Shown here in pieces: positions 2,902 through 5,307 of a DNA stretch of 34,957 nt. Source of the DNA: an uncultured Alphaproteobacteria bacterium (GTDB lineage Bacteria; Pseudomonadota; Alphaproteobacteria; RF32; CAG-239); the NCBI GenBank assembly GCA_905235385.1, contig CAJOLB010000003.1:1-34957 (forward strand), read 5' to 3'. The notes under the pieces are model-generated. The model ran no database searches. It saw only the letters and a list, made by a program, of their open reading frames with translations, and had not been told where the DNA came from. The stretch's first letter is position 1. The number at the start of each line of letters is the position of its first letter. A program made the position numbers and the translations under genes.

Positions 2902-2991
2902 GGAAAGGTGGCAGAGCGGTTTAATGCAGCGGTCTTGAAAACCGTCGAGGGTGCGAGCCCTCCCAGAGTTCGAATCTCTGCCTTTCCGCCA
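2902..2991 (+). tRNA. tRNA-Ser (anticodon TGA), CCA encoded
   Basis: Acceptor ggaaagg/cctttcc, anticodon loop cttgaaa, long variable arm, T-arm gttcgaat, 3' gCCA. Confidence 0.93.
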
Positions 2992-3027: not shown

Positions 3028-3056
3028 TTGACGGGAAGTGAGATAAGAACTCTGGG
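3026..3056 (-). repeat. inverted degenerate copy of tRNA-Ser(TGA) 3' end
   Basis: gttgacgggaagtgagataagaactctggg vs reverse complement of the tRNA 3' end gttggcggaaaggcagagattcgaactctggg. Confidence 0.65.
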
Positions 3057-3150
3057 GGAAGAGTTCGACGGCAAGCGAAAGGCGGGCGAAAGAACGCCGG
3101 TCGCATTTGCAATGAGCGCAGACGCGGCGCAGATTTTGATAAAATCAAGC

Positions 3151-3209
3151 CAATCCTGCCATTGAAGCCAACAAAAAAACATCGACATTGTGTCGGTGTT
3201 TTTTTGTTG
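3151..3209 (+). repeat. second, degenerate direct copy of tRNA-Ser(TGA) 3' end plus near-identical terminator
   Basis: caatcctgccattgaagccaacaaaaaaacatcgacattgtgtcggtgtttttttgttg vs gaatctctgcctttccgccaacaaaaaaacatcgaccttgtgtcggtgtttttttgttg; gcca offset 179 bp. Confidence 0.85.
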
Positions 3210-4443: not shown

Positions 4444-4804
4444 AGTCGTTTGTTGTTGTGGTTGTTGTGGTGCTGCCATCTGCATTCTGACGTTTGACGG
4501 TTGTTGTGCTATCATCTGTGACACCATCTTTAATGTCTGAGCCGACTTCTTTTGTGCCGTCCCAAACATCAGATGTTACTTTTTTCGTGCCGTCCCAAAC
4601 ATCTGAAACGACTTCCTTTGTGCCATCCCAAACATCAGATGTTACATTTTTTGTGCCTTCCCAAACACCGCCGGATTCATTTTGAGCCAAAATAAATTCT
4701 CCTTGATTATCATTTTCATGTATTTTTGCATATAGTTCCTCTCCGGCAAAAAAACCGCCGACAGCCAAAATGGCAAGAGAAATATATTTTGTGGTTTTCT
4801 GCAT
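4442..4804 (-). CDS. secreted or membrane-anchored 11-aa tandem-repeat protein
   Basis: N-terminal hydrophobic segment; repeats VWEGTKNVTSD VWDGTKEVVSD VWDGTKKVTSD VWDGTKEVGSD; Thr-rich tail. Confidence 0.6.
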   Translation of the reverse strand: MQKTTKYISLAILAVGGFFAGEELYAKIHENDNQGEFILAQNESGGVWEGTKNVTSDVWDGTKEVVSDVWDGTKKVTSDVWDGTKEVGSDIKDGVTDDSTTTVKRQNADGSTTTTTTTND

Positions 4805-4958: not shown

Positions 4959-5047
4959 GGAACGTTGGTAGAGTGGTAATACAGCGGATTGCTAATCCGT
5001 CATCCCCTTAAAAGGATGCAGAGGTTCGAGTCCTCTACGTTCCGCCA
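4959..5047 (+). tRNA. tRNA-Ser (anticodon GCT), CCA encoded
   Basis: Acceptor ggaacgt/acgttcc, anticodon loop ttgctaa, long variable arm, T-arm gttcgagt, 3' gCCA. Confidence 0.93.
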
Positions 5048-5093
5048 AAAAAAGAGCGCCTTTAAAGGCGCTTTTTTTTTGAGGGAAAAGTGA
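5029..5093 (+). repeat. 65-bp direct repeat copy 1 (tRNA-Ser(GCT) 3' end + terminator + gagggaaaagtga)
   Basis: Identical to 5243-5307. Confidence 0.95.
5053..5080 (+). terminator. intrinsic terminator after tRNA-Ser(GCT)
   Basis: agcgcctttaaaggcgct + T9. Confidence 0.88.
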
Positions 5094-5104
5094 GGTCTCG
5101 AACC
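5080..5104 (-). repeat. inverted degenerate copy of tRNA-Ser(GCT) 3' end
   Basis: gagggaaaagtgaggtctcgaacc vs reverse complement of tRNA end ggcggaacgtagaggactcgaacc (17/24 by eye). Confidence 0.55.
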
Positions 5105-5242
5105 GAAAGGCCGAAAGGAATTCAAAGCAACTTAATGTTGCTTTGAAACCTTGAGGGTGCTCGATTTGTTAATGAAAAAACGAGCGGGGGCGAAGTTTTT
5201 GAATGTTACAAATCAAACCGCACGAGCTGTTGAAAACAGCGT

Positions 5243-5307
5243 AGTCCTCTACGTTCCGCCAAAAAAAGAGCGCCTTTAAAGGCGCTTTTTTTTTGAGGGA
5301 AAAGTGA
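5243..5307 (+). repeat. 65-bp direct repeat copy 2 (partial tRNA-Ser(GCT) 3' end + terminator)
   Basis: Identical to 5029-5093, offset 214 bp. Confidence 0.95.

Follow-up and report, generated by a model that had tools for sequence, protein, structure and literature searches.

Structured repeat units of the tRNA-linked repeat kind at serine and other tRNA genes of gut Alphaproteobacteria

What is a stretch of DNA that repeats the 3' end of a tRNA gene and its terminator shortly downstream of the gene itself, and does it belong to a recurring system? The question is raised by tRNA-Ser(GCT) in a 34,957-nt stretch of contig CAJOLB010000003.1 (hereafter the window) from an uncultured alphaproteobacterium (GCA_905235385.1; genome G000), for which an initial annotation had claimed a 65-bp perfect duplication, an inverted tRNA-end-like segment and several perfect stems in between, and an architecture shared with a second tRNA-Ser gene.

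One layout at two serine tRNA genes

The duplication is exact in both coordinates and identity: positions 5029-5093 equal 5243-5307 over 65 bp each, starting in the T-loop of the intact tRNA. The parts of the locus are:

4959..5047, plus strand: intact tRNA-Ser(GCT) with encoded CCA (ARAGORN; Rfam RF00005, 59.7 bits)
5029..5093, plus strand: first 65-bp repeat copy, comprising the tRNA 3' end from the T-loop, the terminator and 13 bp
5049..5080, plus strand: first terminator-like hairpin, intrinsic type (GAGCGCCTTTAAAGGCGC and a T run), read from sequence
5081..5104, minus strand: inverted, degenerate copy of the tRNA-Ser 3' arm (gagggaaaagtgaggtctcgaacc), an inverted repeat with 80% complementarity in a position that recurs after many tRNAs
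5114..5152, plus strand: hairpin H1, caaagcaac/gttgctttg at 5123-5145 with an outer extension (fold, alignment)
5163..5214, plus strand: type A core with P1 (gatttgt/acaaatc), P2 and a short apical P3 (model R2; covariation; cmsearch 66.6 bits)
5226..5240, plus strand: hairpin H3, gctgtt-gaa-aacagc, just ahead of the second tRNA end (sequence)
5243..5307, plus strand: second 65-bp repeat copy, again tRNA 3' end, terminator and 13 bp, with terminator hairpin 2 at 5263-5294

The unit thus runs from tRNA to terminator, inverted tRNA 3' arm, structured core, second tRNA 3' end and second terminator. The stems that had been pointed out are real (H1; P1, with 5163-5169 paired to 5208-5214 within a longer imperfect hairpin spanning 5163-5214; and H3), and the unit is more specific than described. 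Its inverted segment is the reverse complement, in degenerate form, of the tRNA 3' arm as a whole and extends beyond the T-arm. The 149-bp spacer holds the inverted arm, hairpins and type A core only, with no integrase or remnant of one. The RNA fold of 5082-5307 is far better than dinucleotide shuffles (z = -6.6). Including the tRNA gives z = -10.5; in the minimum free energy structure the 5' acceptor strand of the tRNA takes the second 3' copy as its partner, and the inverted copy takes the first 3' end. This pairing is a prediction for the full-length RNA, and the tRNA would normally be expected to fold first during transcription.

Elsewhere in the window, positions 4503-4667 hold four in-register tandem repeats of 33 bp, also spaced 33 bp start-to-start. 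On the minus strand these would encode an 11-residue repeat (SDVWDGTK-like), which matches a repeat-bearing small protein 5' of the same tRNA in another genome (G004, locus L006).

The companion locus at tRNA-Ser(TGA) is laid out as follows:

2902..2991, plus strand: intact tRNA-Ser(TGA)
3028..3056, minus strand: inverted copy of the tRNA-Ser(TGA) 3' arm (own-arm score 13/17)
3063..3119, plus strand: type B (RtT-like) core (model R1; cmsearch 65.3 bits; covariation)
3132..3146, plus strand: hairpin gatttt-gat-aaaatc (6-bp stem, 3-nt loop) before the second tRNA end
about 3150..3209, plus strand: second, degenerate tRNA 3' end and second, near-identical terminator (50/60 identical to the first copy of tRNA end plus terminator)

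The two layouts match, down to the 6-bp/3-nt hairpin before the second copy, as had been suggested; the second tRNA end is degenerate here (50/60), against the exact 65-bp copy at Ser(GCT). The earlier description of the loci as unrelated in sequence is right insofar as their cores represent two distinct families, type A at Ser(GCT) and type B at Ser(TGA).

Ser(GCT) in the relative G005 (L002) bears on how the copies stay alike: reverse-complementing its first terminator gives exactly its second (GACACCTTTACAAGTGTC / GACACTTGTAAAGGTGTC). Since the tRNA arm and its inverted copy form a palindrome centred on the terminator, flipping between the arms is the simplest reading, and the G005 terminators point to fold-back or inversion. 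The 65-bp identity is consistent with the recent duplication or ongoing conversion that had originally been proposed. Together, flipped terminators and long identical repeats suggest ongoing local exchange.

Recurrence and structure of the units

We asked how often a tRNA is followed by copies of its own parts, taking every tRNA match in the window genome (40) and in a congener, G008 (38), which left 77 after de-duplication. Against arms of tRNAs with other isotypes as control, an inverted own T-arm (at least 12/17, 25-70 nt downstream) follows 29 of the 77 tRNAs where 2.9 are expected, and a direct copy of the own 3' end (at least 14/18, 90-260 nt downstream) follows 18 where 0.1 is expected. 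Units with both arms and a core could be extracted automatically at many tRNAs. One to three tandem copies were seen (L012, L016, L031, L033, L171). What is inserted is a conserved, structured unit of 130-190 bp that is common to different tRNAs. In the window genome, tRNA-Asp (L059) and tRNA-Pro(CGG) (L066) carry the inverted arm 3' of the terminator without core or second tRNA end; such partial units are possibly remnants or precursors of full ones.

Cores of the two families were aligned separately (model R2 for type A, R1 for type B). Type A occurs at Ser(GCT) in the window and at Gly, Arg, Pro, Asp, Val, Lys, Ala, Thr and other tRNAs, and type B at Ser(TGA) in the window and at many others. 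In a type B unit the inverted arm is followed by one direct half of the T-arm, GGTTCGA, then by the core and the other half, ATCC..CCA, which reads as a core inserted in the T-loop of the second tRNA copy. The split point of type A units varies, falling in the T-arm or variable loop, or, in copies on the 5' side of tRNAs, in the D-loop or anticodon loop.

Both cores are supported by compensatory change, in alignments that were hand-chosen from related sequences and with shuffled values that serve as controls and not as p-values. In type A, 86% of cells are paired, 12 of 19 pairs have changed on both sides, and covariation is 0.266 against 0.102 when shuffled; the figures for type B are 97%, 8 of 11, and 0.440 against 0.154. 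Shifting the partner by 1-3 columns abolishes the signal in either family. At one type B pair, 15 of 18 sequences have a G-U; read on the opposite strand it would be A-C, which favours the tRNA-sense strand as the structured one. Core identity averages 0.68 within genomes and 0.67 between them, giving no signal, on average, of intragenomic homogenisation; the best within-genome pairs nevertheless reach 0.88-0.90, above the 0.63-0.72 of same-tRNA pairs across genomes.

Among 100 genomes sampled from the order, which comprises uncultured Alphaproteobacteria of gut and rumen, 94 contain type B (1-21 copies each) and 68 contain type A (up to 32 copies), and the window genome has 11 type B and 5 type A, about 16 in all; these counts, being model matches in metagenome-assembled genomes (MAGs), could be underestimates. 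The initial annotation had supposed a system that recurs at tRNA genes, and this is borne out by the own-arm tally, covariation and order-wide occurrence. The outcome named there as pointing to coincidence, no other tRNA with this layout and no covariation in the spacer, was examined on both counts, each with the opposite result.

Over 240 genomes of the class, R1 matched 16, and apart from the three members of this family only L182 and L183 look convincing. L183, from another alphaproteobacterial family, has two type B units 3' of tRNA-Glu(CTC) with no recognisable terminators between them, which shows that a unit can do without the terminator. Further R1 matches in other alphaproteobacterial families (L184-L190, 24-34 bits) were set aside as chance, lying in apparently ordinary coding stretches that lack the layout. 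The exact type B core pattern occurs in 68 stretches among 84,980 species genomes, all titled uncultured proteobacteria, mostly Alphaproteobacteria and many from rumen or gut, and had no match in a scan of viral contigs.

Placement, empty sites and mobility

The families differ in where they lie. Type B is on the 3' side of a tRNA and on its strand in 51 of 51 non-edge matches in one sample and in 66 of 73 in an overlapping one, the seven others being mostly arrays with a truncated tRNA end, and it was on the opposite strand in neither sample. Type A is found on the 3' side in the same (35) or the opposite (10) orientation, on the 5' side (6), with no tRNA within 600 bp (3), and at a contig edge (1). 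The 5'-side copies lie within a truncated 5' tRNA copy, which they split at the D-loop (L176, L038) or the anticodon loop (L157, L158, L160, L173), with the leader duplicated and the intact tRNA following. Copies away from tRNAs lie in or beside palindromes (L154, L032, L165).

One of these, L154, is filled in genome G002 and empty in the relative G007, and lies outside any tRNA. The empty site reads ..GCAAGGGGG TT GGGGGATTATAATATC.., and the filled one has GCAAGGGGG, then an insert running from CGTGAGGATGAAAA through the core to CAATGCTAGA, then GGGGGGGATTATAATATC. The difference is a clean insertion of about 130 bp beside a hairpin, with no long target duplication, and its left end, GG|CGYGAGGAT, is found again at Ala, Lys, Met, Val and Ser(CGA) tRNA loci. 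A deletion in G007 would be compatible with this one comparison, but loss exactly at the element ends would be a coincidence. Other sites vary too: Ser(GCT) is empty in G002 (L008), and at Lys(CTT) the core is of type B in the window genome but of type A in G008 and G003. Adjoining the type A insertion at L154 (query 145-223) is a repeat of about 80 bp (CGTCATGGCTCGTCCGG...), an interspersed sequence that matches G007 dozens of times.

These features (either orientation, positions 5' of tRNAs, palindromes outside tRNAs and a precise empty site) lead us to read type A as a small non-autonomous mobile element, a first sign that one core family may move. Against mobility, no enzyme family that we tested could be tied to the elements: Y1_Tnp is present in 37 of 100 genomes and absent from the copy-rich G008 and G075, RVT_1 occurs in 6 of 18 genomes, and no IS110 lay above cut-off in 18 genomes. 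The absence of a Y1 transposase from carriers would be compatible with one acting in trans or with a source since lost. Small non-autonomous elements with hairpins near both ends are known as the REP/PATE-like elements associated with IS200/IS605 and RAYT. The type A insertion resembles these in lying beside a palindrome without a long target duplication, but differs in that no Y1 transposase, which elements mobilised by IS200/IS605 or RAYT would call for, is consistently present across carriers, and that no conserved foot tetranucleotide could be shown.

Relation to E. coli tRNA-linked repeats and rival readings

The closest known counterparts are the tRNA-linked repeats (TLRs) of E. coli K-12, reportedly known since 1978 and said to have been described by Egan and Landy in that year and by Rudd in 1999. 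Stenum et al. (2021; PMC8144298) describe 22 of them at ten loci, including tyrTV/rttR, argVYZQ and rrnB, each with the same 3' end as the upstream gene; they have no known function, an early claimed phenotype having later been retracted, while rrA, rrB and rrF, between dual terminators, are transcribed by read-through and their RNAs bind Hfq and CsrA in vitro (PMC8144298). In TLRs the repeat shares the last 18-19 bp of the upstream gene and lies directly 3' of it in a tRNA or rRNA operon, in one to five copies. Here, 5243-5261 equals the last 19 bp of tRNA-Ser(GCT), and units occur directly 3' in one to three tandem copies; by this defining sequence feature the window loci belong with the E. 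coli TLRs.

The likeness goes further. E. coli TLRs likewise lie directly 3' of a tRNA gene, or of a 5S gene, singly or in tandem arrays of several, and end as that gene ends; a core common to different tRNA loci has arms that fit the local tRNA; and rrA, rrB and rrF sit between two terminators, as do the two window cores. Our comparison of E. coli K-12 found a single unit 3' of tyrT and three 3' of tyrV, of which the first carries the annotation rttR, all with the form GGGGAAGGATGAGAAGCTTCG (inverted arm) ACC AAGGTTCGA - core - GAGTAATCCTTCCCCCACCACCA; the argVYZQ units read GGGAGGAT - core - ATCCTCCCGGATGCACCA and share the core stretch AACGTTGC..GCAACGGCCCGAAGGGCGA with the tyr units. In contrast to the 22 repeats at ten E. 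coli loci, however, the window genome has about 16 model matches and type B reaches 94% of the sampled order; the repeat takes in the terminator, with 65 bp identical; there are two core families; and type A is also found in opposite orientation, 5' of tRNAs and outside them. We found no description of the inverted-arm rule, of type A cores or of copies away from tRNAs in the literature consulted, chiefly PMC8144298, a later account than the original TLR papers (1978, 1991, 1994, 1999).

Type B has the fold order of RtT/RttR RNA (Rfam RF00391): inverted arm, GGTTCGA, core, ATCC...CCA. A unit at Ser(CGA) (L042) matches RtT over its full length at 36.6 bits, under the Rfam gathering score of 45, and type B shares the stretch GTTCGA..C.AGCGAAAGCGAGA.AACG with the E. 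coli tyrT-tyrV spacer unit, on which the reciprocal R1 score is weak (15.5 bits, and 9 bits on rttR). RF00391 had no match in the window and none at E 0.01 in 34 genomes of the order. Homology of the type B core to RtT is likely, with the units outside the RtT family by Rfam score. At gathering threshold, Rfam finds only the two tRNAs in the window; low-threshold miRNA and sRNA matches there were rejected as palindrome noise.

We consider it probable that both loci are TLRs, with type A a small non-autonomous mobile element and type B a tRNA-locked, RtT-like form. The layout, its recurrence across genome and order, the conserved core structures and one precise filled/empty type A site outside tRNAs are observed directly. 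At each locus an intact tRNA with its terminator precedes an incomplete second tRNA 3' end that bears a structured core of about 60-130 nt; an inverted copy of the same tRNA arm lies ahead of it, so that the core is flanked by an inverted repeat whose arms come from the local tRNA. We infer that type A enters hairpin loops or palindromes and that, within tRNA genes, the only insertions to survive may be those that leave an intact tRNA next to the partial duplicate; arms and terminators would be kept alike by fold-back, conversion or unequal exchange acting locally. The empty site at L154 is outside tRNAs and has no flank duplication, and the origin of the tRNA arms is therefore not explained by it. 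Tentatively, and with rather less confidence, we suggest that TLRs generally, those of E. coli included, could be footprints of tiny mobile elements. These would use an as yet unrecognised mechanism to enter the loops of DNA or RNA that folds into hairpins (tRNA arms, REP palindromes or terminators), and would leave an intact tRNA beside a split copy; one lineage, type B/RtT, may have settled permanently 3' of tRNAs as an RNA gene.

The units might instead be functional sRNA genes, vertically kept and derived from tRNA read-through transcripts, as RrA, RrB and RrF are from rrn operons, with their spread reflecting use and not mobility. Covarying structure, the near-invariant G-U pair on the tRNA-sense strand, the locked orientation of type B 3' of tRNAs and a two-terminator placement like that of rrB, whose read-through RNAs bind Hfq and CsrA in vitro (PMC8144298), speak for this reading. 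We hold it unlikely, however, given type A copies in opposite orientation, 5' of tRNAs or in REP-like or intergenic palindromes, sites empty in relatives, and the same tRNA, Lys(CTT), bearing different core families by species.

Direct repeats that begin in the T-loop, as att cores often do, also recall attL and attR of a decayed prophage or ICE integrated at the tRNA 3' end, and translations indicate integrase-like reading frames directly 3' of tRNA-Ser(GCT) in G019 (L013) and G024 (L024), where this tRNA apparently doubles as an attachment site for larger elements. For the units themselves this origin is highly improbable, and is in large part already refuted by cores that different loci share: a structured unit of 130-190 bp, conserved and with an inverted arm, recurs across different tRNAs, gene remnants are absent, and mirror-image units lie at tRNA 5' ends. 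Chance tandem duplication or mis-assembly of repeats deserves mention, as the genomes are MAGs and several contigs end within units, but is scarcely credible when dozens of independent assemblies share the layout with the complete E. coli K-12 genome, and own arms are enriched over the control.

The architecture is real and recurrent, and carries the TLR kind into a further proteobacterial class, where it is far denser; the kind is known, while the variant found here is new and much larger. An order with TLRs in nearly every sampled genome and at dozens of isoacceptors offers covariation-backed structures, two core families and filled/empty comparisons, with which two old questions become testable: whether TLRs are mobile elements or sRNA genes, or indeed both, and what makes their ends agree with the adjoining tRNA.
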